This document shows positions 3,935 to 17,432 of a stretch of 64,000 bases of DNA, in pieces (positions within the stretch are counted from its first letter, which is position 1; each line of letters opens with the position of its first letter). This DNA is from Flavobacteriales bacterium. GTDB lineage: Bacteria; Bacteroidota; Bacteroidia; Flavobacteriales_D; Crocinitomicaceae. The position numbers and the translations under genes were made by a program. Location of the stretch: the NCBI GenBank assembly GCA_947497485.1, contig CANMHB010000006.1, forward strand, positions 1 to 64,000, given 5' to 3'. The notes under the pieces are model-generated. The model worked only from the letters and a program-made list of their open reading frames with translations. It searched no databases and was not told where the DNA came from.

Positions 3935-6886
3935 TTGAAAACTCATTCCCATTTCAGTTTGAAATATGGCATTTTATCGCCAGAAGAAATTGTTGATTTA
4001 GCAATTGAATTGGGTTATAAATCTGTTTTACTTACTGATATCAATACAACAGGCTCTGCACTTGCGTTTATTCGAGCAGCAAAAAGCAAAGGCATTAAGC
4101 CGATCGTAGGTGCAGAAATAAGAAATGGATTACAGATAATCGGAACAATCATTGCCAAAAACAAAGATGGTTTTCATGAACTAAATTCGTTTTTATCAAA
4201 ATATTTGGCTTCTAATCAAATTTTTCCAGATCGATTTCCGGTATTTAAAAATTGCATTGTTAGCTATCCTATTTCTAAAATAAATCACATATTAATAGAA
4301 AATGAATTTACTGATATTCAATTAAATGAAATATATAATTTAAACTATAAGTATAGATATATTGACCAATCCAAATTGATCGTTTTAGAGCCAATGACTT
4401 TTCGTTCGAAACGCGATTTCAACACCCATCGATTGCTTCGAGCCATTGCGAACAACACCTTACTTTCGAAATTACCGAAGAATGAACAAGCAAATGAAAA
4501 TGAAAAGTTCATTTCAAAAAATCAATTTCAAAAATCGTTTGAATTTTATCCAGAAATCCTGACGAAAACGTGGGAGCTATTTGATACTTGCGAACTCGAT
4601 TTTGAATTCGGTGATGATGCTATTCCTCAGAATCCTATTTCGTATACGGAATCGATCGAATCTGACAAGGCCTTGCTTAAAAAATTATGCTTTGAAGGGC
4701 TTGAATTTCGATATTCTGAGGTAACAGAGAAAATTCTAGCTCGAATCGAAGTGGAAATCGATATTATTGCCGAAAAACATTATCTATCTTACTTTTTAAT
4801 CGCCTGGGATTTTACTTCTTACGCTCGCTCAAAGGGATATTTCTACGTTGGAAGAGGAAGTGGCGCCAATAGCATTGTGGCTTACCTACTCCGAATAACA
4901 GACGTTGATCCACTCGAGTTGGATTTGTATTTTGAGCGATTTATTAACCTTTATCGGAAAAACCCACCGGATTTCGATATCGATTTTTCTTGGAAAGACC
5001 GCGATGATGTCGTAAATTATATTTTCAACAAATTTCCTAATTCAGCTTGGCTTTGCACTTATAATACATTTCAATATCGAGCAGCTGTTCGAGAACTAGG
5101 AAAAGTATTTGGTTTACCCAAAACCGAAATAGATCTTTTGTGCTCAGGAAAATATTCACTTGAAAAAATTGACGAAATTTCGAAACTCGTATTGAAATAT
5201 TCCAAGCTAATTGAAGGCCTTCCCTCCTATTTAAGTGTTCACTCCGGCGGAATTGTAATCAGCGAAAAACCAATAACGTATTTTTCATCGACCTTTCTTC
5301 CTCCAAAAGGCTTTCCGACGACACAATTCTCGATGATGGAAGCAGAAGATGTTGGACTTTATAAGTTTGACGTTTTAAGTCAGCGTGGACTTGGGAAAAT
5401 TGAGGAATGCCTTGAAATCATTGCCTACAATCAACCAAATGCAGACATTCATGACATACATGACATCGCATTTTTTAAGCAAGATAAAAAAATTGAGCAA
5501 TTACTAGTTGAAGGAAAAGCTTTGGGCTGTTTCTATGTTGAATCTCCAGCTATGCGGATGTTGATGTTAAAGTTGAATGTCCGAACGTATTTGGAATTAG
5601 TCGCCGCAAGCTCGATTATTCGTCCTGGGGTTTCGCAATCAGGTATGATGCGGGAATACATTCTTCGCCATAAAAACCCGGAACTACGAAAAAAAGCCCA
5701 TCCCGAATTATTAAAAATAATGCCTGAAACATACGGTGTTATGGTTTACCAAGAAGATGTCATCAAAGTCGCACATCATTTTGCAGGTCTATCGCTAGCT
5801 GAAGCAGATGTCTTGCGCAGAGGCATGTCAGGGAAATTTCGCTCGCGGGAAGAATTTCAATCGGTTAAAGATGCTTTTTTTGTTAACTGCCAAAAGAAAG
5901 GATTTGATTCAGAATTAACAACAAGTGTTTGGCATCAAATTGAAAGCTTCGCGGGATATGCTTTTTCGAAGGGACATTCAGCTTCCTATGCTGTTGAAAG
6001 CTACCAAAGCTTGTATTTGAAAGCCTATTTTCCGTTGGAATACATGACCGCTGTCATCAATAATTTTGGCGGCTATTACCGAACAGAAGTGTACGTTCAT
6101 GAAGCGCGAAAGTGGGGCGCAAGCATTGAAGCGCCATCGATAAATGAAGGATCCTTTTCTTGTATCTTAAACGGAACACGACTTATTTTAGGATTTAATT
6201 TAGTTGATGGAATTGAGACAAATCTTATTTTAGCGTTGATAAAAGAAAAGTTTCAAAATGGAATTTTCGAAGATTTCGAAGATCTGATGAAACGATGTGT
6301 AATCCCGCTGGAACAACTATCGATTCTCATTCGGATTAACGCGCTTCGCGACTTTAAAGAAAGTCGAAAAGAACTACTTTGGAAAGCCCATTTTTGGCAT
6401 CAAAACAGTAAGCCAAATCAGAAGACTATTAAGCTTTTCGAAGTTGAAACCACTAATTTCTCAATTCCTGAACTCAGTGAAAATAAGTATGAACTAATTT
6501 TTGAACAAATGGAATTACTGGGATTTCCACTTTGCAATCCATTTGAATTATTGAAAAATGAAATTCCTAAAACTCATGTAAAAGCAACTGAAATAAAAGA
6601 TCATCTCGGGAGAATCATTGAAACCTATGCCTATTTAGTAGCAATCAAACAATCAAAAACGCAACGAGGCGAAATTATGAATTTTGGGACTTTCCTTGAT
6701 GTTGATGGAAATACATTGGACACTGTTCATTTTCCTGAAAGTACACGAAAATACCCGTTCAGAGGAAAAGGAATTTATTATTTGAAAGGATTTGTTAGCG
6801 AGGAATTTGGCTATTATACCCTTGAAGTCGGAACAATGGAAAAGCTTCCTTTTATGGAAGATGTCAGATTTGATGAACCACTATAA
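3935..6886 (+). CDS. Short DnaE-type DNA polymerase III alpha subunit
   Basis: This 983-residue C-family DNA polymerase is much shorter than the main replicative DnaE of Bacteroidota (usually over 1400 residues), so it is probably the accessory, damage-tolerance-type copy. An N-terminal PHP domain begins with THSHFS; the usual TDH of active PHP domains reads TDIN, which suggests lost metal-dependent exonuclease activity. The palm has VGRGSGANS at about 305 and the catalytic PDFDIDF at about 344-350; RRGMSGKF and FSKGHSASYA are typical finger motifs. The start is TTG; only ATT codons separate it from an in-frame stop at 3917, and no ATG is available. No imuA, imuB or lexA gene lies beside it. 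Its 3' end overlaps aat by 6 nt, convergently. Confidence 0.9.
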   Translation: MKTHSHFSLKYGILSPEEIVDLAIELGYKSVLLTDINTTGSALAFIRAAKSKGIKPIVGAEIRNGLQIIGTIIAKNKDGFHELNSFLSKYLASNQIFPDRFPVFKNCIVSYPISKINHILIENEFTDIQLNEIYNLNYKYRYIDQSKLIVLEPMTFRSKRDFNTHRLLRAIANNTLLSKLPKNEQANENEKFISKNQFQKSFEFYPEILTKTWELFDTCELDFEFGDDAIPQNPISYTESIESDKALLKKLCFEGLEFRYSEVTEKILARIEVEIDIIAEKHYLSYFLIAWDFTSYARSKGYFYVGRGSGANSIVAYLLRITDVDPLELDLYFERFINLYRKNPPDFDIDFSWKDRDDVVNYIFNKFPNSAWLCTYNTFQYRAAVRELGKVFGLPKTEIDLLCSGKYSLEKIDEISKLVLKYSKLIEGLPSYLSVHSGGIVISEKPITYFSSTFLPPKGFPTTQFSMMEAEDVGLYKFDVLSQRGLGKIEECLEIIAYNQPNADIHDIHDIAFFKQDKKIEQLLVEGKALGCFYVESPAMRMLMLKLNVRTYLELVAASSIIRPGVSQSGMMREYILRHKNPELRKKAHPELLKIMPETYGVMVYQEDVIKVAHHFAGLSLAEADVLRRGMSGKFRSREEFQSVKDAFFVNCQKKGFDSELTTSVWHQIESFAGYAFSKGHSASYAVESYQSLYLKAYFPLEYMTAVINNFGGYYRTEVYVHEARKWGASIEAPSINEGSFSCILNGTRLILGFNLVDGIETNLILALIKEKFQNGIFEDFEDLMKRCVIPLEQLSILIRINALRDFKESRKELLWKAHFWHQNSKPNQKTIKLFEVETTNFSIPELSENKYELIFEQMELLGFPLCNPFELLKNEIPKTHVKATEIKDHLGRIIETYAYLVAIKQSKTQRGEIMNFGTFLDVDGNTLDTVHFPESTRKYPFRGKGIYYLKGFVSEEFGYYTLEVGTMEKLPFMEDVRFDEPL

Positions 6887-7483
6887 AATAAATTTACACT
6901 CCTTTGTAATTGAGCGGCGAAGTTTTTCAAGAAAGGAATCCTTCGAAATTTCAATAGCTCCATATCTTAAAACATTTTCATTCATGAATTGCGTATCCAA
7001 AAGTTCAAATTCATTTTTTCGCAAAATTTCTATCAAATAATGAAAAGCCACCTTGGATGAATTCGAAACCAATGAAAACATCGATTCGCCATAAAAAACA
7101 CCTCCAATTTGAACACCATAAAGTCCACCGACGAGTTCATCGTTTTGATAGGCTTCAATGGAATGAGCATATCCTAATTGATTTAAATTGGAATAAGCTT
7201 GAATCATTTCTTCTGATATCCAAACACCATCGCCTCGATATCGAGGCAAAGCACAGTGACGCATTACCTGCTCGAATTGTTGATTGATTCGAATTTCAAA
7301 AACATTTCTATTCAAAATTGGCCGCAATGATTTAGATGGTCGATAGGTATCAATCGGAATAATCGCTCTTGGATCTGGGCAATACCAACTAATTTCCCCT
7401 CGCCTATCTGCCATCGGAAAAATTCCCTGACAATAGGCTGAAAACAATAATTTTGAAGTTAAATGTTGCGTTGATTTACCCAA
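6881..7483 (-). CDS. aat: Leucyl/phenylalanyl-tRNA--protein transferase
   Basis: The product (200 aa) transfers Leu or Phe from aminoacyl-tRNA to proteins with N-terminal Arg or Lys, marking them for the ClpS/ClpAP N-end-rule pathway in the cytoplasm. Family signatures are visible: LFSAYCQGIFPMAD near the N terminus, ISWYCPDPRAIIP, VFEIRINQQFEQVMRHCA, and in the core GGLYGVQIGGVFYGESMF with FELLDTQF. The length fits the shorter bacterial form. The start appears to be TTG at 7483; an ATG at 7488 is in another frame and is soon stopped. It converges on the DnaE-type gene with a 6-nt overlap. Confidence 0.93.
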   Translation of the reverse strand: MGKSTQHLTSKLLFSAYCQGIFPMADRRGEISWYCPDPRAIIPIDTYRPSKSLRPILNRNVFEIRINQQFEQVMRHCALPRYRGDGVWISEEMIQAYSNLNQLGYAHSIEAYQNDELVGGLYGVQIGGVFYGESMFSLVSNSSKVAFHYLIEILRKNEFELLDTQFMNENVLRYGAIEISKDSFLEKLRRSITKECKFIL

Positions 7484-7516
7484 AACATTTTTAGCTAAAA
7501 TAGTAAAATTAATATT

Positions 7517-7837
7517 TCAAGTCACAAGTAACTCATTACACAAATAAGCACAGTGTTTGCAGGTTTTCATACATTCAGCACAGCAATGGTGGTGAGAGGC
7601 ATGTTTTGAACATTCGTCGGAGCAAGCTTGGCAAACCTTTGCACAAATTGCATAAAGTTCTGTTCTAAATTTCGAGCCTCGCGCCTTGAAATTCAGCGTT
7701 AAAGAACAAATATCAGCGCAATCGCGGCAAATGGCAATGCATTCGTTGTTCTTCTGAATGATTGAGTCCGTAAAACATATTTCACAATTGATGATACAAG
7801 CCTCGAGTGCATCCGTTAATTCTTTGAAGTTATTCAT
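7517..7837 (-). CDS. Cys-rich four-helix-bundle copper-binding-type protein (DUF326/Csp-like)
   Basis: This 106-residue protein contains about 17 cysteines spaced along predicted helices (CIINCEIC, CIAICRDCADIC, CAKVCQACSDEC, CCAECMKTCKHC) and a His cluster HASHHH. That pattern matches the DUF326/copper storage protein family, whose four-helix bundles bind many Cu(I) ions through inward-facing cysteines. There is no signal peptide, so a cytosolic form is likely. Copper storage or buffering is inferred from the family. No copper regulator or exporter lies next to it. Confidence 0.85.
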   Translation of the reverse strand: MNNFKELTDALEACIINCEICFTDSIIQKNNECIAICRDCADICSLTLNFKARGSKFRTELYAICAKVCQACSDECSKHASHHHCCAECMKTCKHCAYLCNELLVT

Positions 7838-8017
7838 AGCATATCATTTTCTACAAAGATGACATACTTGGATTCAAATTTCTTTGTAAAACTGAAGTAA
7901 TATTTTGTGATTTAATGCCTTTGACTATAGTTCATTAATAAAGATGAAATAAATGCAAATTGTATTTGAATTCTGATAAATAAATGTTGGATTCTACAGC
8001 TAATTTTGACAAAAAAA

Positions 8018-8476
8018 ATGGAAATTTCGGCAGGATTAAAACAAGCTTATATAGAAGCAAGATCACGTCTAAAATTATTAACCGATCAAATTACTGAACC
8101 AGATTTAAGTAAACGCCTAGCTTCAGTTCCAAATTCCATCGGATTTTTGCTCAGGCATATTGGCGATGTAGAACTGCTGTTCGCTAAAAACGTATTCAAG
8201 GCAACGGAGATAGACGTTAAGGCTCGAACAGTAATCGACAAAAAAGATACTGGAGAATGGATAAATCTTGATGAACTAGTCGAATATTTGGAAAAATCAA
8301 ATTCCACAATAACTAAAATAATTGAAAATCAACTGAACGAATCTTGGGATGAATTAATTACAACCAACGAATTCGGAACAAAGACGAAAATCGAAGCTTT
8401 TGGTAGAATTATTTCTCACACAGCTTATCACACGGGACAAGTTGCACTTCTTCTCAAATATGGTAATCTTAATTGA
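8018..8476 (+). CDS. DinB/YfiT-fold putative metal-dependent enzyme
   Basis: The product (152 aa) has the four-helix DinB pattern: an N-terminal helix with SIGFLLRHIGDVE carrying the first conserved His, and a C-terminal HTAYHTGQVALLLKYG carrying the HxxxH pair. These three His residues normally bind a divalent metal. Members include thiol-dependent transferases, but most have no assigned substrate. The ATG at 8018 is preferred; a TTG four codons upstream (8006) is also in frame. It converges on the cold-shock gene with only 3 nt between stop codons. Confidence 0.8.
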   Translation: MEISAGLKQAYIEARSRLKLLTDQITEPDLSKRLASVPNSIGFLLRHIGDVELLFAKNVFKATEIDVKARTVIDKKDTGEWINLDELVEYLEKSNSTITKIIENQLNESWDELITTNEFGTKTKIEAFGRIISHTAYHTGQVALLLKYGNLN

Positions 8477-8491
8477 TAATTAAGCCTTTTT
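8468..8491 (+). terminator. Hairpin spanning the stops of two convergent genes
   Basis: A perfect 7-bp stem CTTAATT/AATTAAG with a GAT loop (8468-8484) is followed by TTTTT at 8487-8491. It overlaps the stop codons of the DinB-fold gene and of the convergent cold-shock gene, so it could end plus-strand transcripts. The stem is AT-rich and therefore weak. Confidence 0.4.
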
Positions 8492-8929
8492 CACATGAAC
8501 TGCATTCCAACCTTTATGGCCCTTTACGCGTTCAAAGGTAACATTGTCATTTTCGCTCACAGAATCAATTAGACCATTAATATGAACAAAAATTGTTTCT
8601 TGCGTTAATTGATCCTTAATGAATCCGTATCCTTTTGAAGTATTGAAAAATGCAACTTTTCCTTTTCTAACTTTGTCCTCAGGTTCTTCAGCTTCTCTTC
8701 TTTGAACCCCAATTTCAATTGATTCAGCACTAACGGATTTGCGCATTTTCGGATCAATCGGTTCGTCGGTGATATTACCATATTCATCAACATAAGCCAT
8801 CATGCTTTCTAGCGAACCACCTTTTGAAGAAGCTTTTCGTTCTTCTTTTTTCAATAATTTATCTTGTCTTTTTTTTTGCTTATTTTTCTCTTTGTCCTTC
8901 TTCAGGTAGGTTTCTTGCGATTTAGCCAT
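8480..8929 (-). CDS. Cold-shock-domain protein with charged N-terminal extension
   Basis: The 149-residue product has a strongly basic Lys/Glu-rich N-terminal third (KKDKEKNKQKKRQDK) followed by an acidic linker and a C-terminal cold-shock domain at about 88-149. RNP1-like KGYGFIKD and RNP2-like IFVHI are intact, so single-stranded RNA or DNA binding is expected. Proteins with this layout are common in Flavobacteriia as stand-alone genes. It is transcribed away from the retron and lies 149 nt from the predicted retron RNA. I see no firm sign that it belongs to the retron. Confidence 0.9.
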   Translation of the reverse strand: MAKSQETYLKKDKEKNKQKKRQDKLLKKEERKASSKGGSLESMMAYVDEYGNITDEPIDPKMRKSVSAESIEIGVQRREAEEPEDKVRKGKVAFFNTSKGYGFIKDQLTQETIFVHINGLIDSVSENDNVTFERVKGHKGWNAVHVKKA

Positions 8930-9078
8930 TTAAATTTACTTTTCCGTTTTAAATTAATTGTTATAGAGTCTCTAAAAACGAAAAAAAATCACAATGATAC
9001 GAGGGATAAAAATTCGGTTTAAATCTATTTGATAAAGTTAGTGATTTTCTTTGAATCTCACGACCGCAAAGTCAGAAA

Positions 9079-9375
9079 GAGACAAATTTTTAACCTTTTT
9101 AAATCTTTAGATTACGAATAATTTCAACGAGAAATTAAATTTTACACAAATTACGGAATGTAACTATTTTCAAAAGCAACGGCATTAATTTCGTTTTAGA
9201 AAGTTGAATCGGAATTAGCAATTAGATGGATTACGATTCGTAATTCTTGCGAGTTGTTTGATTATGAAATTTGCTACTCAAATTTCCAAAAATGAAAACG
9301 CAACCCGCTTCGCAAGTCTGTTTTCAGAACAGAAAAGTTTTTCCGATTCGGCTTTCTTTTTAAAAACTTCGTCTC
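9079..9375 (+). ncRNA. Predicted retron msr-msd non-coding RNA
   Basis: The 447-nt gap 8930-9376 has no convincing ORF but is full of secondary structure, laid out as a retron RNA should be. The a1 segment (GAGACAAATTTTT, from 9079) pairs with a2 (AAAAACTTCGTCTC, ending 9375): five GC-containing pairs, then 2+4 pairs with two mismatches. The msr part (about 9094-9197) holds a 7-bp hairpin TAATTTC/GAAATTA (9119-9137) and TTAC/GTAA (9151-9163). The msd part (9198-9357) is one long hairpin. a2 ends one base before the reverse transcriptase ATG. A TTTCTTTG box at 9046-9053, with TTTG at 9028, is a weak promoter candidate. The branching G was not identified with certainty; the TTTAGATTACG stretch near 9108 is one option. 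Confidence 0.78.
9198..9357 (+). other. msd hairpin: 17-bp basal stem with internal arms
   Basis: AGAAAG (9198-9203), TT (9204-9205) and GAATCGGAA (9206-9214) pair without interruption with TTCCGATTC (9341-9349), GG (9350-9351) and CTTTCT (9352-9357); the two central pairs are G-U wobbles in RNA. Inside are CTTGCGA (9246-9252) with TCGCAAG (9310-9316), GTTG/CAAC, a tip hairpin GAAATTTG/CAAATTTC with a 5-nt loop (9266-9286), and TCTGTT/AACAGA (9317-9333). Such a structured block next to a2 is what a retron RT copies into msDNA. The pairing is seen directly; the msDNA role is inferred. Confidence 0.75.
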
Positions 9376-9376
9376 A

Positions 9377-10486
9377 ATGAAAATTTCAGAATTAAAATTA
9401 AATCCTCCGAAAGAAGAACTTACCAATTTCCTTTTGAATTTGGAATATGATATTCCGTTAAACGATGGTTTTTACAACGAATTGGTTTTATTCAAAAAAA
9501 ATAAAAGAAAACGCATTATCCATGAACCAATCGAATCTTTAAAGAAAGTTCAACGTGAATTGCTTGCAATTTTATATCAAGCCATTGAAAAGAATAAAAT
9601 TCTTAATCGAGAAAATTCATCGATTGACATGAATAAAATTAACCCAGGATTTATTCGAGGAGTAACCGCATATCGTCCTTCTTGTTCCGTCATCAGAAAC
9701 GCACATTTTCATAAAAATAAAGAGTTAATCATTAAACTAGATATCAACAATTTCTTTGGTTCTGTTTCTGAAAAACAAGTTAATGACGTTTGGAGAAATA
9801 TTTGGAGTCATACACCAAAACAGCTCGAAAATGGAAATCAAATGAATTATTCTGCTGACGAAATTCATAGACTTACAGTGAACTCAAATAAACTGGCAAC
9901 GTTGAATGATTCTCTACCTCAGGGTGCTCCAACCAGCGGATACATTGCGAATTGTGTTTTGGATGAGTTTGATAAACGTGTATTATTTTTCTGCTGTAAA
10001 AGAAATTTAAGTTATTCAAGGTATTCAGACGACATAACCATTTCAGGGTCAAAACGAACTTCAAAGGAAATTGCCGAAATCATCTCATTTGTTGCGAATC
10101 AATTAAAGAAATATGATTTTGAACTTCACCAACGAAAAATTAGAGTCCTTAAAAAACATAATCGTCAAATTGTAACAGGAATTGTCGTCAACGAAAAATT
10201 ATCAGTTCCTCGAAAACTAAAAAAAGCGCTGCGTCAGGAAGTTTACTTTCTTTTCAAATTCGCTGAAAACCATGTCAAAAGGCATCACAGCAATGTTCAA
10301 AAATACCTCAATCGTTTAAGTGGAAAAATTAATTGGGTTATACAGGTCGAAAAGGAGAATCGCGAATTTCTTTCGTATCGTTCAAGCTTAAAAAATCTAA
10401 ATTCCAATCTTCAGAATAAAAATTTCTCACTATATGATGCTTGTCGTATAACCTTAGAAAATCCTGAACTTTTTGTAATTGACTGA
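9377..10486 (+). CDS. Retron-type reverse transcriptase
   Basis: This 369-residue RT carries the motifs that separate retron RTs from other bacterial RTs: NAxxH (NAHFH, 108-112) before motif A, and VTG (266-268) in IVTGIVVNEKLSVPRK. Motif A is LDINNFFGSV (121-130), motif B is PQGAPTSGYI (181-190), and the catalytic box is RYSDDI with Asp218-Asp219 (YSDD rather than the more usual YADD). RRI-like RKRIIHEPI lies at 44-52. It would prime from a branching guanosine in the upstream RNA and copy the msd region, giving an RNA-DNA hybrid. No extra enzymatic domain is fused to either end, and the next plus-strand gene starts 99 nt downstream with its own leader. Retrons usually act as anti-phage systems with an effector; none is evident here. 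Confidence 0.93.
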   Translation: MKISELKLNPPKEELTNFLLNLEYDIPLNDGFYNELVLFKKNKRKRIIHEPIESLKKVQRELLAILYQAIEKNKILNRENSSIDMNKINPGFIRGVTAYRPSCSVIRNAHFHKNKELIIKLDINNFFGSVSEKQVNDVWRNIWSHTPKQLENGNQMNYSADEIHRLTVNSNKLATLNDSLPQGAPTSGYIANCVLDEFDKRVLFFCCKRNLSYSRYSDDITISGSKRTSKEIAEIISFVANQLKKYDFELHQRKIRVLKKHNRQIVTGIVVNEKLSVPRKLKKALRQEVYFLFKFAENHVKRHHSNVQKYLNRLSGKINWVIQVEKENREFLSYRSSLKNLNSNLQNKNFSLYDACRITLENPELFVID

Positions 10487-10585
10487 TTTCGAAATTGAAA
10501 GATTTTCAAAAAAAATCAAATCATTAAAGGCAACCAAATTTTTAATTTGAAGTCTTTGGTTTAAATCACCTTAAACTTTAAAGCC

Positions 10586-12052
10586 ATGAAAACATTATTT
10601 TCGCTTTTTGCACTTTCAGTAAGTGTAGCTTTTGGACAACAAATCACAGTTACCAAAGCTGAATATCAAAATTTAAAGCAATCTGGACTTATTAACCCAA
10701 ATGCCCAATATTCGTTTTCAGACCAGGCTTTTCCTTCCAATATTAAATACGTTGGATCCGCTGAAAAAAATGGATTATGTGATTGCATGGTTCCATTGGA
10801 TTCAACGTTTACATTAGCAATGCTTCCGAATGACGACGAATCATCTGAGTTAATAAATTTACCTTTTACGTTCGATTTTTATGGAAATCAGTATAACGCA
10901 CTTTATATCAATAATAATGGAAATATTTCTTTTGTAAGTCCTTATATAACTTGGACTTCCAATTCATTTCCGGATTCAACATATAATATGATTGCTCCAT
11001 TTTGGGGAGATGTTGATACAAGAGGAGGAATGGATAGCTTGGGTAACTTCATCGGAAATGGAGGAGGCGTTTGGTATAAAATTACTCCAAGTGCATTGAT
11101 TGTTAATTGGAATCAAGTGGGTTATTTTAATATGCACTCAGATTTAGTTTCAACATTTCAATTAATCATCTCTAATGGTGCTGATTCATTAATATCTGCA
11201 GGTGGAAATGTTTCATTTTGTTACCAAGACATGCAATGGACAACCGGCGACGCATCTGGCGGATTTGGTGGATTCGGAGGTTCGCCCTCAACCGTTGGAG
11301 TAAATATTGGAAATGGCGTGGATTTCTTCCAAGTTGGCCAATTTGATCAAACTGGAACAAATTTCGATGGACCTGTAAACAACAATGATGGTATCGATTT
11401 TCTAGATGGACAGGAAATCTATTTTAATGTTGCAGGGATCAACCCTTCCAATACTCCTCCCCTTCTCGTTAGCAGCGCAATTTGTGACACAATTGATGTT
11501 TACACCGGAGATACATTACAAAAAAGTATCAACGCTGTTGAATTTTCCATCGGTGTAATGACTCCAGAAGTTGATCAAACAATAACAATGGAATTTAATT
11601 CAAATGCACCTGAAAATGCTTTCTCATTCCAAATAAACAATCTTGGAAATCAATTTTACAACATCAATGCGTCTTTTGATGCAACTGGTGTTGCTCCAGG
11701 AATTTATATAGTTAACCTTACAGCGAGAGACAATGGAACTCCAGTTGGAATTACAACTAAACAATTTATTTTCAATGTAAAATACGATGCGTCTTTAGGC
11801 TCTAATGAATTAGCTTCAAATGATGTGGAAATATACCCGAATCCGACTAATGACAAAGTTAATTTTGTTTTGAAAAATCAAAATATTGCAGACCAAATCG
11901 TTATTCAAGATCTTTCTGGTAAAATAATGATTACACAACATATTGGAAATGATCCACAAATAGATTTAAGTGAATTATCAAATGGAATTTATTTGATAAC
12001 CTTCTATTCAAATAATCAAGTTGTTGCGGTTGATCGTGTGATCAAAGAATAA
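10586..12052 (+). CDS. Secreted nidogen-like protein with T9SS sorting domain
   Basis: The 488-residue product begins with a signal peptide (cleavage near VAFGQ, about 18). Residues about 70-285 resemble a nidogen-like (NIDO) domain: LPFTFDFYGNQYNALYINN, NMIAPFWGDVDTRGG, VWYKITPSALIVNWNQ and a Gly-rich SPSTVGVNIGNG segment. A cadherin/Ig-like domain follows at about 300-400, then a T9SS type A sorting domain (VEIYPNPTNDKVNF, LSELSNGIYLITF, ending VIKE). The protein should be exported by T9SS and anchored on the surface or released. Its ligand is unknown. It follows the retron RT by 99 nt but looks like an ordinary surface protein. Confidence 0.87.
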   Translation: MKTLFSLFALSVSVAFGQQITVTKAEYQNLKQSGLINPNAQYSFSDQAFPSNIKYVGSAEKNGLCDCMVPLDSTFTLAMLPNDDESSELINLPFTFDFYGNQYNALYINNNGNISFVSPYITWTSNSFPDSTYNMIAPFWGDVDTRGGMDSLGNFIGNGGGVWYKITPSALIVNWNQVGYFNMHSDLVSTFQLIISNGADSLISAGGNVSFCYQDMQWTTGDASGGFGGFGGSPSTVGVNIGNGVDFFQVGQFDQTGTNFDGPVNNNDGIDFLDGQEIYFNVAGINPSNTPPLLVSSAICDTIDVYTGDTLQKSINAVEFSIGVMTPEVDQTITMEFNSNAPENAFSFQINNLGNQFYNINASFDATGVAPGIYIVNLTARDNGTPVGITTKQFIFNVKYDASLGSNELASNDVEIYPNPTNDKVNFVLKNQNIADQIVIQDLSGKIMITQHIGNDPQIDLSELSNGIYLITFYSNNQVVAVDRVIKE

Positions 12053-12075
12053 ACTCTTAATTATTAATCTAAATT

Positions 12076-12106
12076 AAAGTGCATCATTTTCGGTGAACTT
12101 TTTTTA
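12076..12106 (+). terminator. Intrinsic terminator between convergent genes
   Basis: AAAGT-G-CATC (12076-12085) pairs with GGTG-A-ACTTT (12092-12101): nine pairs including one wobble, one mismatch and a 6-nt ATTTTC loop. It is followed by a T tract to 12106. It should end the nidogen-like gene transcript and may also slow the convergent SDR transcript. Confidence 0.65.
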
Positions 12107-12123
12107 TTCTAAAAAATGAACTT

Positions 12124-12924
12124 TTACGTTGCGGATTGTTTCTTGATTATCTTCCAAAAAAGAGCTGGAAAGTAACGTTTAATTCGAACAGCCCAAATCT
12201 CTTTATTTCCGATTAGAACTTCCCGTTTCTTTGACTGGAGGGCATGCAACATTTGTTTTACACAGACGGCAACAGGCATTCCCGTTTCCTGATTGTGATC
12301 CATAATTCCATGTTTATTTCCTTCTGCATTTATTGCATTGGTAGAAATGGGCGTATTGATTTTTCCTGGACAGACAATCGTTACAGAAATCCCATTGTGT
12401 TCTTCTTCCAATGCCAAGCTTTCATAGTAACCATGAAGTGCATGTTTGGCTGCACTGTAAGCTGATCTCAAGTAGAATCCGAATTTCCCTGCGACACTAC
12501 TTATCACTAATATTTGCCCAGATTTCTGCATTTGCATAAAGGGCAATACAGCTTTCGTCAATGCAATATTTCCAAAGAAATCAACTTCCATGATTTTGCG
12601 GTTAACCTCCATCGAAGAATCGCTAGCATTTGCTCGTTGACTGATTCCTCCGTTATTTATTAGAATATCAATTCTACCAAATTCATCAAAAACCTTCTTT
12701 GCCAATTCATCAAAATTAGATGAATCCTCTAAATCTAAAGGAACAATTAAATGTTTTTTATGATTGCTAAGATTTTCTCTGAGCATTTGAAGCTTTTCTT
12801 TGTTTCTTGATGACAAAATTAAATGTGCTCCTTGCGGTGCCAGTTGTTGTGCTAATTCCTCGCCTATTCCGGAGGATGCTCCCGTAATCCAAACAACTTT
12901 GTTAGAAAAATAGGTGTTCGACAT
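12124..12924 (-). CDS. SDR family NAD(P)-dependent oxidoreductase
   Basis: This classical short-chain dehydrogenase/reductase (266 aa) shows the [10 protein letters not shown] nucleotide-binding loop, NNGG, ISSVAG with the catalytic Ser, and YSAAKHA with the catalytic Tyr and Lys. The C-terminal [15 protein letters not shown] resembles the DHRS7/YqjQ-like subgroup. The substrate cannot be told from sequence. The ATG at 12924 is preferred over a TTG four codons upstream, because [15 protein letters not shown] gives the normal short N terminus. It is divergent from gmhA. Confidence 0.9.
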
Positions 12925-13006
12925 AATGAATTTCAAATATACGAAAGTTAGAGAGAATTACTCAGTTGAAGAGTTTTTAAGTAAATTTGATTTACGAAGA
13001 GAATAT

Positions 13007-13585
13007 ATGAATTTAAAAGAGCAAATTGAAAATCAATTTTCAGAGGCATCAACCGTTTTGAAAGCATTTCAAACAGAAGAAAACTATCTTAAAATTGAGC
13101 AAGCTGTTCACTACATGGCCTTAGCATTAAGACATGGGAATAAAATCATTAGTTGCGGAAACGGAGGGTCGATGTGCGATGCGATGCACTTTGCAGAAGA
13201 ATTAAGTGGTCGTTTTCGTGATAATCGACAAAGCTTGGCAGCTGTTTCAATTTCTGATCCTTCACATATTTCATGTGTGGCAAATGATTTTGGCTATCAG
13301 TTTGTTTTCTCGCGCTATCTCGAGGCTCTAGGTAAAGAAGGTGACGTGCTTTTGGGTATTTCTACTTCCGGAAATTCGGAAAATGTTATCCTAGCTGTCG
13401 AAAAAGCAAAAGAACTTGGGATAAAGACGATTGTATTAACAGGTAAGGATGGTGGAAAATTAGCCGATTTAGCTGATTTAGAAATTAGAGCGCCTCATTC
13501 AAAGTACGCGGATCGCGCCCAAGAAATTCATATTAAAATCATTCACAATTTAATACTAGGAATTGAACAAACACTTAAACTTTAG
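13007..13585 (+). CDS. gmhA: Sedoheptulose 7-phosphate isomerase
   Basis: GmhA converts sedoheptulose 7-phosphate to D-glycero-D-manno-heptose 7-phosphate, the first step towards ADP-heptose for the lipopolysaccharide core. The 192-residue product matches the length of E. coli GmhA and keeps its landmarks: [20 protein letters not shown] (SIS domain), [31 protein letters not shown] and [13 protein letters not shown] with the metal-binding Glu and His. An in-frame GTG start 93 nt upstream would add a 31-residue tail not found in the family, so the ATG at 13007 was chosen. No other heptose gene is adjacent. Confidence 0.93.
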
Positions 13586-13599
13586 TAAAATTAAATGCC

Positions 13600-13752
13600 A
13601 TGAATATTTTTAGAGTTATACTAGCCATTGTTTTTCCGCCATTAGCAGTAGTAGACAAAGGTTGTGGTTCATTTTTAATTGTCTTTATCCTGACCTGTCT
13701 CGGATGGATACCCGGCGTGCTGGGTGCTTTGATAATTATGAATAAAGATTAA
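13600..13752 (+). CDS. YqaE/Pmp3 family small membrane protein
   Basis: This 50-residue gene lies 14 nt after gmhA. It encodes two hydrophobic helices with the Pmp3 signature: an N-terminal VILAIVFPPLAVV segment, then KGCGSF, and a second helix ending LGWIPGVLGALIIM. The family (proteolipid membrane potential modulator, PF01679) occurs in bacteria, fungi and plants and is linked to salt and low-temperature stress and to membrane potential. It may be cotranscribed with gmhA. The exact role here is not known. Confidence 0.85.
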   Translation: MNIFRVILAIVFPPLAVVDKGCGSFLIVFILTCLGWIPGVLGALIIMNKD

Positions 13753-13834
13753 GCGGAATTAAATAATAATTACGGATTCATTTTTATAAAATAATAATTA
13801 AAAGAAATCAATTTAAATAATACTGAATCATTCA

Positions 13835-14767
13835 ATGAAATTTGAAAATATCCAACAAAACTTAAATAAAATAAGTGCTTTCGTAATCATTCTCAGTGCT
13901 TTTCTTATTGGTATCGAGACATCTTTTCGTGATGAAGAAAATTTAAAGGTTATATTCAGAATTACAGACATCTTAATTTTTATTTACTTTTCATTAGAAA
14001 TCATTTTCAGGATATTTAGTTCAAAATCCTCAGTTTCTGATTTTTTTAAAACAATCATCTCTAAGGTGAAAGTTGAAAGTAATGTAGTTGAGAAAGAGAA
14101 AGAAAATGATATAATAGAAGAATGGCTTTGGATTGCTTTTGATTTTTCATTGGTTGTTCTAAGTTTGTTGTCTTTTCTTAGGCATTTTCTAGAACATCCA
14201 CAACTAGTCTTAATTCTTAGATTATTTGGCGTTTTTAGAATTTTTCGTGTTTTTGAACTAAATGATACCTTGAAAAGAATTGAAAGAAAAATAATTTCTG
14301 TAATACCAACAATCTTAACATTTTTCTTTTTGATAGCTTTAATGATTTACACCTATTCAATTGTTGGGATGCACTTATATAATTATGAAAAATTTCAATA
14401 CATTGACTTCAGTAATTTATATTCTTCGATGACCTCATTGTTCATCCTAATGACAAATGGTTGGTCTAATGTTCTATTCGAGCTTCGTCAAGTTGATCAT
14501 GTCGCTATTTTAGTAACGGATGTGTATGTTATTTCTTTTTTCATATTTTCCGTACTTATAACATTGAATGTTTTCCTTGCTGTTATGACCTCTCAAATTG
14601 AAGAGAAACTGACAGATGATTTAAAAAAAATGAAAGAATCTGATGAGGAGATTAAATCAGAAATAATCAAGCTGGATCAAATCGATAAAATTGAAAATGA
14701 GGTTATTTTAGAGAAAATGAATCAAATTCTGAAGGAAATAGAACAGCTTAAATCAAAAAAAGAGTAG
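13835..14767 (+). CDS. Six-TM voltage-gated-type ion channel
   Basis: The 310-residue protein has the layout of a single-subunit voltage-gated cation channel: S1 about 12-28, S2 40-60, S3 97-116, an S4-like LRLFGVFRIFRVF (129-141), S5 157-180, a pore loop with LMTNGWSNV (205-213), S6 229-251, and a charged C-terminal coiled coil (255-310) that would support tetramers. S4 carries only three or four Arg residues, and the filter TNGW differs from the LESW of NaChBac-type sodium channels, so ion selectivity is open. It stands alone, with its own short AT-rich leader. Confidence 0.82.
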   Translation: MKFENIQQNLNKISAFVIILSAFLIGIETSFRDEENLKVIFRITDILIFIYFSLEIIFRIFSSKSSVSDFFKTIISKVKVESNVVEKEKENDIIEEWLWIAFDFSLVVLSLLSFLRHFLEHPQLVLILRLFGVFRIFRVFELNDTLKRIERKIISVIPTILTFFFLIALMIYTYSIVGMHLYNYEKFQYIDFSNLYSSMTSLFILMTNGWSNVLFELRQVDHVAILVTDVYVISFFIFSVLITLNVFLAVMTSQIEEKLTDDLKKMKESDEEIKSEIIKLDQIDKIENEVILEKMNQILKEIEQLKSKKE

Positions 14768-14846
14768 TTTCTAAAATAATTATTTATTTGCATTGGTGAA
14801 TACAATCACTTATTAAAGTATTTAATACTGAACTTTTAAAATCAAA

Positions 14847-15482
14847 TCAAAAATTAATTTTATCAATTATTTTAACTCTTGATTTGTGCACATATCCTTT
14901 CAAAGAAACACCTTCATAAACGAAATTAACTTTTAGCCAACTTGGATCATTTGTAGTAAAAAAGTAAAATGCCTCGATATCAATTTCAGAAGGTTCAATT
15001 TTACCCGTAATTTTTGATTTTGTATTCATTTCACTTCTAACATTTACATAGCCATCTGGATCTACGATTTCACCAACAACTGGAATTACTAAGTTTCGTG
15101 GCTTGACAATCGCACCTGATAGGTTGAGGTTTGTAACAACCCAACCCTGACATGCGAAATCAAACACACCTTCATTACAAAGATGAACGATATATATAAA
15201 TTCAATATCAAGTTCAGATCCAATATAGTTCTCCATCGAATCAATAGGAATACCTTTATAGATGTTACTTGTTAAAACAAAATCATTCATACTCAAATTG
15301 AAATCCTCTCCAGAATCAGAATTTGTAAATAAAAATCCTCCTATTTGAGAATCATTATCAATTCCATTTAATCTTAGTGTCATTTTTTTCGTGTCTCCAA
15401 TTTTTTGACAATTAGCAAAAAAATTGTTTATTAAAAAAATCACAAAAAATATATTCAAATAATTAACTCTAATTTTCATCAT
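14847..15482 (-). CDS. Secreted or lipoprotein-type protein with bacterial SH3 domain
   Basis: The product (212 aa from the MM start; either ATG at 15482 or 15479 is possible) begins with a hydrophobic signal segment ending FFANCQK, which may be a lipoprotein box with a lipidated Cys. The middle part is unrecognised. Residues about 140-210 form a bacterial SH3-like domain (DGYVNVRSEMNTKSKITGKI, SWLKVNF, LKGYVHKSRV), usually a cell-wall or ligand-binding module. A longer in-frame reading from 15563 would put 27 extra residues before the signal segment and is unlikely. It is last in a same-strand block of uncharacterised genes. Confidence 0.7.
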   Translation of the reverse strand: MMKIRVNYLNIFFVIFLINNFFANCQKIGDTKKMTLRLNGIDNDSQIGGFLFTNSDSGEDFNLSMNDFVLTSNIYKGIPIDSMENYIGSELDIEFIYIVHLCNEGVFDFACQGWVVTNLNLSGAIVKPRNLVIPVVGEIVDPDGYVNVRSEMNTKSKITGKIEPSEIDIEAFYFFTTNDPSWLKVNFVYEGVSLKGYVHKSRVKIIDKINF

Positions 15483-15629: not shown

Positions 15630-17432
15630 CTAACTCAAACCATTTTCTTTCGCCCAAATTTTAATGATTCGATCTTCAAAAGGTTTGCAAAATCTGTTTC
15701 GTTTTCCTTTTTTCTGAACTATTCTATTATTATTTATTTCGATTGTAATTAAATTAATTTCTTTCGGAACTTCTGAATCAATCAATTTACGAAGAGAAAA
15801 AATAAATGATCCAAATTTCATACATTTATTTGTGTAGGATCCAACGCAATGAGAAAGAGCATTACCTTCGAACATCAACTCTCTATTTGATTTCAATTGT
15901 TTAATTATAAATTTTTTATCATTTTCTTCGTACTTAAAAGGTGATATTGAAGAGTAAGGTAGCTTTATGAGTGGGAAAGTTTTACCATATCGTGTGTTTT
16001 CCATTGCCAGATGCCAACGATTTGATTCCTCAATCAAATTTGAGATTTTCTTACTTTTAAAATTGATAGCGCGTTGCAATGTGAACACCTGATTATCAAT
16101 ATAATCCATAATTTCGGATATGTGCTCATTTGATCTAAGTCCATTTTTATACAATTGTATCATAACTTTCACCCAAAACTCCGTATTTCCTGTTGTTTGA
16201 ATATAATGTAATACCGTATTAGTGTAATTAAGATCTTTCAGTTCAAACATAAACGCACTCCAAATTAATCCATTTGTTACCGATAAATTATTGATGGATT
16301 GATTCCACTCATCAGCATACAGATTGTTTTGAAATTCACCTCTCCAATCATTCGAAACAGTATTAAATTTGTGAATTATTTTTTTATTCAAATCAAAAGG
16401 TAGGTTATTCGAATAAAAAAGATTTTTTCCTTGAACAACATTTTTGAACCACTCTAATTCGAGGTAACTCAATCTACTTTCATTAAAATTTCGAATAAAG
16501 AAATAGGATATTCCATAATTACTTAGCAATTTTTCAATTATCTCTTTTCGGAAAGTTTTAAATCGAAGCGCATTTGAATCAGCTAAAAAAGTAAAATCAA
16601 TCGGATCAATTTTATCGTATATATGCCTATTGCAATTATAAATAAAAAACAATTTTTCCCAATCTATAGTGGAAAAATCAGCTAGACTCTTATTAGGTAA
16701 TTTTATTAAGTAAAGCTCAAGAAATTCAAAAAATTTTGAGTCATAGACGAAAGGAGCCCTTTCTTTTTTGATAAACTGGATGAAAAACCTTTCATATACT
16801 TCTGCATCCAAATTAAATTTCTTAATAATTGAAAATAAGTTTTCAAGCGTTTTCGTGTTTTTTAAGTCCTGATTGGTGAGAACAAAACCCAAAATGTTTG
16901 CCCCTATTCTATAATGGACTAGCGCCTTTGAAATTGAATCTTGACAATGATTTAAAATAAAACCAAAGAAAATATTGAATTTGTCGTAATTTTCAGATGT
17001 GAATATTTGTTTGGCAATTTTACAAAATGTATTCAGTAGATTCTGTTTCGATTTAAAAGTTTCTCGAGGTCCTAGAATTAAAAAATAAACAAATTGCCCC
17101 CAAAATCCTGCCTCCTGTGCAAAAGGTTTCTTTCCTAATTTCAAAATGCAATAACGCAAACACGAGAAAACCTCTTTATTTTTTATGAATTTACGAAACA
17201 AGCAAAGGGTATCAGCAATATTTAAAAGAGGAAGATTTGTTTGTTCGTAAATTGCTTGAAGCTCTATGAAAAATGATGTTTCGTATTGCCTATTTTCCTG
17301 CTTTATCAACGCAGAAATTCCCGATCTATAGTTGTGTATGCGCGATTCATCAGCACTTAATAGTCTATTTCCCGGATTCCCACTATTCAGAATTTCCCCA
17401 TTTAAATTGAGGAATATCTCCTTTAAAGTCAT
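15630..17432 (-). CDS. PcfJ-like domain protein of unknown function
   Basis: The first about 500 residues of this 600-residue protein are Leu/Phe-rich, probably helical and unrecognised. The C-terminal about 82 residues match the PcfJ-like family: EGNALSHCVGSY (His528, Cys529), GSFIFSLR, then ITIEINNNRIVQKKGKRNR and a final helix. PcfJ was named from an enterococcal conjugative plasmid; its biochemical role is unsettled, and related proteins occur on mobile elements. No signal peptide or membrane helix is evident. The protein two genes upstream has a related Cys-centred motif. Base composition is AT-rich like its neighbours. Confidence 0.7.
   Translation of the reverse strand: MTLKEIFLNLNGEILNSGNPGNRLLSADESRIHNYRSGISALIKQENRQYETSFFIELQAIYEQTNLPLLNIADTLCLFRKFIKNKEVFSCLRYCILKLGKKPFAQEAGFWGQFVYFLILGPRETFKSKQNLLNTFCKIAKQIFTSENYDKFNIFFGFILNHCQDSISKALVHYRIGANILGFVLTNQDLKNTKTLENLFSIIKKFNLDAEVYERFFIQFIKKERAPFVYDSKFFEFLELYLIKLPNKSLADFSTIDWEKLFFIYNCNRHIYDKIDPIDFTFLADSNALRFKTFRKEIIEKLLSNYGISYFFIRNFNESRLSYLELEWFKNVVQGKNLFYSNNLPFDLNKKIIHKFNTVSNDWRGEFQNNLYADEWNQSINNLSVTNGLIWSAFMFELKDLNYTNTVLHYIQTTGNTEFWVKVMIQLYKNGLRSNEHISEIMDYIDNQVFTLQRAINFKSKKISNLIEESNRWHLAMENTRYGKTFPLIKLPYSSISPFKYEENDKKFIIKQLKSNRELMFEGNALSHCVGSYTNKCMKFGSFIFSLRKLIDSEVPKEINLITIEINNNRIVQKKGKRNRFCKPFEDRIIKIWAKENGLS

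Follow-up and report, generated by a model that had tools for sequence, protein, structure and literature searches.

The DNA analysed here, a window of 64 kb (positions 1-64,000 of the forward strand of contig CANMHB010000006.1 in the Flavobacteriales bacterium assembly GCA_947497485.1), very probably holds a solitary retron cassette, in which a 5' ncRNA at ~9198-9357 is followed, after 19 nt, by a retron reverse transcriptase (RT) at 9377-10486. Retrons are usually drawn as an ncRNA at the 5' end, an RT and a toxic effector. In the window the ncRNA and RT stand in that order and probably share one transcript, although promoter scans gave nothing above expectation and no convincing promoter, and no effector gene was found beside the RT in the window, the flanking genes being conserved in other genomes of the genus without it. 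An earlier, sequence-only reading of this DNA had called the locus a complete retron core. The order of ncRNA and retron RT stands, whereas the anatomy of the RNA had been misassigned and no effector adjoins. The core itself is supported, at the level of sequence, by the motifs, profile matches, tree position and predicted fold of the RT and by an ncRNA homologous to the RNAs of its nearest relatives. The features of the locus are as follows.

9042..10560, no strand assigned: cassette, approximate limits; no counterpart in the sister genome G375 between two conserved flanks
9198..9357, plus strand: predicted retron ncRNA (msr-msd), ~160 nt; from the fold z-score and a held-out model
9198..9214, plus strand: a1 arm (corrected); 17 pairs with 9341-9357
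9216..9219, plus strand: TAGC priming motif with predicted branching guanosine G9218; from the sequence, with TTTTAGC at the matching place in five relative RNAs
9228..9246, plus strand: msr hairpin GGATTACG-ATT-CGTAATTC; 8 pairs, standard in 6/6 sequences
9247..9340, plus strand: probable msd template region, its boundaries drawn from its position between the msr hairpin and a2
9341..9357, plus strand: a2 arm (corrected); pairs with 9198-9214
9377..10486, plus strand: retron reverse transcriptase, 369 aa; from motifs, profiles, tree and fold

By blastn of L140 and L170, the DNA of G375 matches the window to ~9041 and resumes from ~10561, which leaves ~1.5 kb for the cassette. The two flanks lie on different contigs of G375 with other neighbours there and, since the sister site is rearranged, G375 offers no clean empty site. 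The genes downstream of the cassette are conserved in comparison with the sister and genus genomes.

The reverse transcriptase among retron RTs

The RT motifs listed by the sequence-only reading, NAHFH at 108-112, QGAPTSG at 182-188, YSDD at 216-219 and VTG at 266-268, are all present in an intact ORF, and they include the region X NAxxH and the VTG at the start of region Y that mark a retron RT. Fifty PADLOC families matched the protein at E 0.001; the best 25 of these 50, headed by RT_III-A at 267 bits and RT_Ec107-like at 232 bits, are retron-set RT models (two carry the label other or outgroup). True members score far higher on their own profiles (Type III-A RTs: 483 bits for L043 and 467 bits for L011; Ec107-like RTs: 340-468 bits for the seven scanned), and the window RT therefore lies outside both groups. 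Retron Ec67 was its best PDB match by sequence (1.6e-23). When the AlphaFold model of the RT (mean pLDDT 82.7) was compared with the PDB by Foldseek, the 18 best matches were all retron RTs, with enzymes of DRT, group II and DGR type ranking below them; this suggests a retron-like fold, albeit with loose superpositions (rmsd above 11 Å, and TMq 0.41-0.52 across these 18).

Single-sequence searches of genome contigs and viral contigs returned no relatives; an alignment-based search did, and of its 162 relatives the best 79 were kept as loci, the distant ones being cut. In a tree of 103 rows, from which 11 rows had been removed beforehand, the window RT and six fused RTs form a clade with support of 100/100, and the same clade is recovered at 100/99 in a tree of 84 rows. 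In both trees the window RT is the first branch, beside rather than within the six. The sequence-only reading had counted an RT outside the retron clades against itself, and the window RT does fall among retron RTs. Seven of the 240 family genomes hold the clade, namely that of the window and the six with fused RTs. Judged by its sequence, the RT comes from a small lineage of Bacteroidota that lies near Type III-A and Ec107.

Neither of these neighbours matches the locus fully. Type III-A, which joins a PRTase and a winged-helix protein to the RT, provides the best RT profile, but the window has no PRTase or winged-helix homologue (searched with models from L009, L010 and L030, classic III-A loci in the same family of genomes) and the III-A N-terminal extension is absent from its RT. 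Retron-Eco5 (Ec107) is similar in its layout of a short ncRNA with a1, TAG(C) and an msr hairpin with a 3-nt loop, followed by the RT, and the window locus, like Ec107-like loci, is intergenic and consists of ncRNA and RT only. It differs from the Ec107-like group in that its RT scores best on the III-A and not the Ec107-like profile, in that the hairpin loop is ATT, not AGT, and in that the first msr stem of many Ec107-like RNAs is missing. According to the review PMC6868368, Eco5 is an intergenic cassette without a mobile element. Another solitary III-A-like retron is L011:1162-2226 (G381): its III-A RT has a well-folded upstream RNA, and the locus of 3.7 kb shows no adjacent PRTase or winged-helix gene.

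The RNA upstream of the RT

The sequence-only reading had predicted structure upstream of the RT, and this was borne out: 9070-9380 folds at z -2.56 (1/100 shuffles), and a second test of the upstream region gave z -3.73 (0/60 shuffles), with values of -1.63 to +1.26 for four other qualifying gene-upstream regions of the window. The segment 9195-9360 folds at z -4.68 (0/200 shuffles), and the complementary DNA of 9246-9340 folds with z -3.18. What had been described as a 17-bp msd hairpin is a real 17-pair helix near the 3' end, but with 126 nt and further stems between its arms it does not qualify as a simple hairpin; because TTAGC follows its first arm, a1/a2 is the better reading. The helix 9198-9214/9341-9357 comprises 15 Watson-Crick and two G-U pairs, and its score was matched by 0/400 random window segments in each of two scans. 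TTAGC (9215-9219) comes directly after a1, which ends one base before TAGC. According to the review PMC6868368, TAGC is the commonest retron priming motif, and the a1 stem contains the priming G or stops just before it, mostly in TAGC. The window RT thus has an adjacent ncRNA with an a1/a2 stem and a candidate priming G beside a1, at positions other than those first proposed.

The hairpin at 9228-9246, with GATTC in its 8-pair stem, is the only GA[GT]TC hairpin with a stem of at least 7 on both strands of the window; CGANTCG hairpins with a stem of at least 6 arose in 55/20000 shuffles of the upstream 205 nt. No Rfam family reached its gathering score in the window, and two minus-strand Rfam matches from 8930-9480, with E up to 5, were rejected as chance.

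Homology was assessed with a covariance model, R2, built from the 3' ncRNAs of five relatives of the fused group with the window left out. With filters off, its best site in the 64-kb window was 9195-9351, matched over its full length at 16.9 bits; E was 0.0013 on 2.2 kb (next match 6.9 bits) and 0.015 on 24 kb (runner-up 14.9 bits), and the best score on the other 40 kb of the window was 13.4 bits. The site was missed with default filters and also in a genus-wide search with stricter filters. R2 thus gives modest support for the window ncRNA. In an alignment of the window with the five relatives, TAGC and the hairpin line up unforced for most rows, and in the msr hairpin 48/48 cells are paired, four pairs are changed on both sides and the covariation score was reached in 0/500 shuffles. 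Given the R2 match, the alignment and the hairpin covariation, there is good evidence that the msr part is homologous to that of the relatives; the msd parts differ between them. Covariation among homologues was a check that the sequence-only reading had proposed, and it is seen in the msr hairpin across the window and relatives and, for a1/a2, in the alignment of the five relatives, which does not include the window. R2 also gave a weak match at G196:C24:105796-105923 (23 bits, E 0.06); G196 itself has no RT match of the clade.

A further model, R1, came from 25 Ec107-like/III-A msr regions picked for showing the hairpin, so that its loop conservation is partly circular. It scored the window ncRNA at 13.2 bits (E 1.8), third in rank, with a higher chance match elsewhere; among the III-A controls three scored 15.5-20.4 bits and L030 and L043 were not listed. 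The 3' RNAs in the fused loci came to light through R1. A scan for a1/a2 with TAG placed 20/74 relatives above the null maximum of 27.2 and the window at 37.6, surpassed by five relatives; since only these 20 pass, the scan is specific but misses many true members. The layout of a1/a2 and TAG seen in the window also occurs in Ec107-like relatives such as L057, L061, L092 and L102. A GAG[TC]C hairpin lies within 420 nt upstream of the RT in 60/74 relatives (L038-L111); L060, one of the 14 without it, has hardly any sequence upstream.

Fused relatives with a 3' RNA

The closest RTs, with 35-45% identity to the window RT, come from six genomes (L032-L037), where each forms the N-terminal domain of a protein of 1417-1452 aa. 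Downstream of the fused RT gene lie genes for an LRR protein, an AAA ATPase of MoxR type (AAA_5) and a VWA/DUF2201 protein. In G145 the RT and partner genes are split over two contigs, and an extra gene of ~405 aa stands ahead in 2/6 loci. The only match in the region that joins RT and LRR was a weak one to FISUMP, in one fused protein (19 bits vs a cut-off of 41.65), and the predicted structure of this region has a pLDDT of 37.6, too low for use. L178 is counted with L032-L037 among the loci of these RT-LRR fusions with LRR, MoxR AAA and VWA genes and an ncRNA behind the last gene.

No structured RNA was found upstream of the fused RTs (z -1.90 to +0.62 for the six loci), and the GA[GT]TC hairpin is absent there in 6/6. 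A retron-like ncRNA instead lies 3' of the VWA gene in all six genomes: TTTTAGC and the hairpin stand directly behind the VWA stop in five loci, and G145 has the RNA too. The hairpin core is GAGTC in L033, L035 and L036 and, as in the window, GATTC in L032 and L037. In the alignment of five RNAs, 14/35 pairs are changed on both sides, six of these in the 8-pair a1/a2 helix. A terminator-like hairpin follows the ncRNA in L036 and, by eye, in the other four.

The window locus therefore shares with this lineage, for which no name was found, the RT clade, a homologous ncRNA, TAGC and the msr hairpin, but it differs in that its RT is unfused, in that LRR, MoxR and VWA partners are lacking and in that its RNA is 5' of the RT. 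The last point also speaks against our reading of the window as a solitary retron with a 5' ncRNA, the RNA of its nearest relatives being 3' of the operon.

With their 3' ncRNA, the fused relatives appear to form a retron type not yet described. In the literature searched we found no retron ncRNA downstream of the RT, and no retron joined with MoxR and LRR or VWA except in PMC7159879, which concerns DGRs; types present only in the Mestre et al. classification may be missed by this search. PMC7159879 describes MoxR-vWA conflict systems with diversity-generating RTs. The fused relatives likewise combine MoxR, VWA and RT, but the RT here is of the retron class. A DGR reading of the fused loci was rejected, as L032, L035, L036 and L037 contain no direct repeats of at least 35 nt, and no TR/VR direct repeats of at least 35 nt were found in window positions 6000-15000. 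An operon of MoxR AAA, 907-aa LRR and VWA genes without an RT gene occurs in G208 (L177:3323-8341), whose distant RT match is on a different contig from this trio; the trio is possibly an ancestor or a partner-less form of the fused systems.

With only slightly better than even confidence, we lean towards a broader model in which a new retron type would exist mainly in a form coupled to a MoxR-VWA machine, with the window RT as its solitary member with a 5' ncRNA. In that main form an RT fused to an LRR-bearing part of ~1050 aa would be followed by the LRR, MoxR AAA and VWA genes and by a 3' msr-msd RNA before the terminator, and the msDNA would serve as a tamper sensor gating an NTP-driven LRR-MoxR-VWA response. 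Within this one lineage the ncRNA would have shifted between the operon ends. If true, retron sensing would be joined to NTP-dependent conflict systems, a use of retrons there that is new as far as we have searched. Should the fused RT use the 3' RNA as its template, such retrons would escape any annotation restricted to the sequence upstream of RTs. The solitary member in the window is a compact natural system in which to study how RT and RNA recognise each other in the lineage.

Proposed mode of action and alternative readings

In the mechanism that we propose for the window cassette by analogy with known retrons, the RNA would fold with G9218 of TAGC held in place as the 2'-OH primer by the 17-bp a1/a2 stem, and the RT would recognise the msr hairpin at 9228-9246, begin copying beside a2 and reverse-transcribe the msd. 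The product would be a branched RNA-DNA, with DNA of at most ~95 nt, that stays bound to the RT. Since no LRR, MoxR or VWA partner adjoins the window RT, we believe that the cassette would act either with an effector encoded elsewhere or as a stand-alone producer of msDNA like Retron-Eco5. Eco5 is among several retrons without a known effector.

An effector in trans, encoded elsewhere in the genome, is the first of these options and we consider it rather unlikely. It would suit a retron with no cis effector, and the genome does hold a second retron-class RT with an adjoining 294-aa gene, but nothing links the window directly to that locus, where the RT is distant (26% identity, best profile RT-Protease_XI) and the neighbour belongs to no Pfam family. 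The second RT (G000:C5, L022:8122-9312, minus strand) has 395 aa, matches RT-Protease_XI at 324 bits and carries no fused protease; the 294-aa gene that comes after it has no Pfam match. Besides the window RT, two weaker RT matches were found in its own genome.

It is improbable that the window locus is a decaying remnant of the fused RT-LRR systems, one that has shed its effector part and ceased to make msDNA. Every other clade member found is fused and in an operon, no LRR/MoxR partner of that kind is adjacent, and none is present in the window's own genome, where the relatives' MoxR partner had 0 matches at E 1e-60. Against this, the ORF is intact with all catalytic and retron motifs and the stems of the ncRNA are perfect and compensated; the window RT branches beside the fused group and has its RNA at the 5' side, so that it is not a simple truncation.

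The RNA drawn by the sequence-only reading, of 297 nt at 9079-9375, is very unlikely to be the functional msr-msd. The full region does fold better than shuffles, but the signal sits in 9195-9360 (z -4.68 vs -2.56) and the corrected ncRNA measures ~160 nt. Its proposed arms, a1 at 9079-9091 and a2 at 9363-9375, pair at 11/13 positions, near chance with 20/400 random window segments scoring equally, and this a1 has no TAGC next to it, the first G past it, G9110, being 18 nt beyond its last base and within TAGA.

There is scarcely any prospect that the locus is a Type V-like retron with the cold-shock protein at 8480-8929 (minus strand) as effector, a candidate that we rejected as a common genus gene: PADLOC CSD_V matches it at 28.9 bits and the Se72 effector model at 27.5 bits, far under the cut-off of 82, but its gene is transcribed divergently from the RT, the protein occurs at full length and at least 54% identity in 19 others of 86 genus genomes, G375 has it (95%) without an RT match, its synteny is conserved without the RT, and the RT profile is not Type V.

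Two other genes of the window may be recorded. A small ion-channel gene (Pfam Ion_trans) lies at 13835-14767, ~3.3 kb downstream of the retron, and is not tied to it because several conserved genes stand between. The minus-strand gene at 15630-17432 encodes 600 aa with a PcfJ-like domain, of a family often found on mobile elements.
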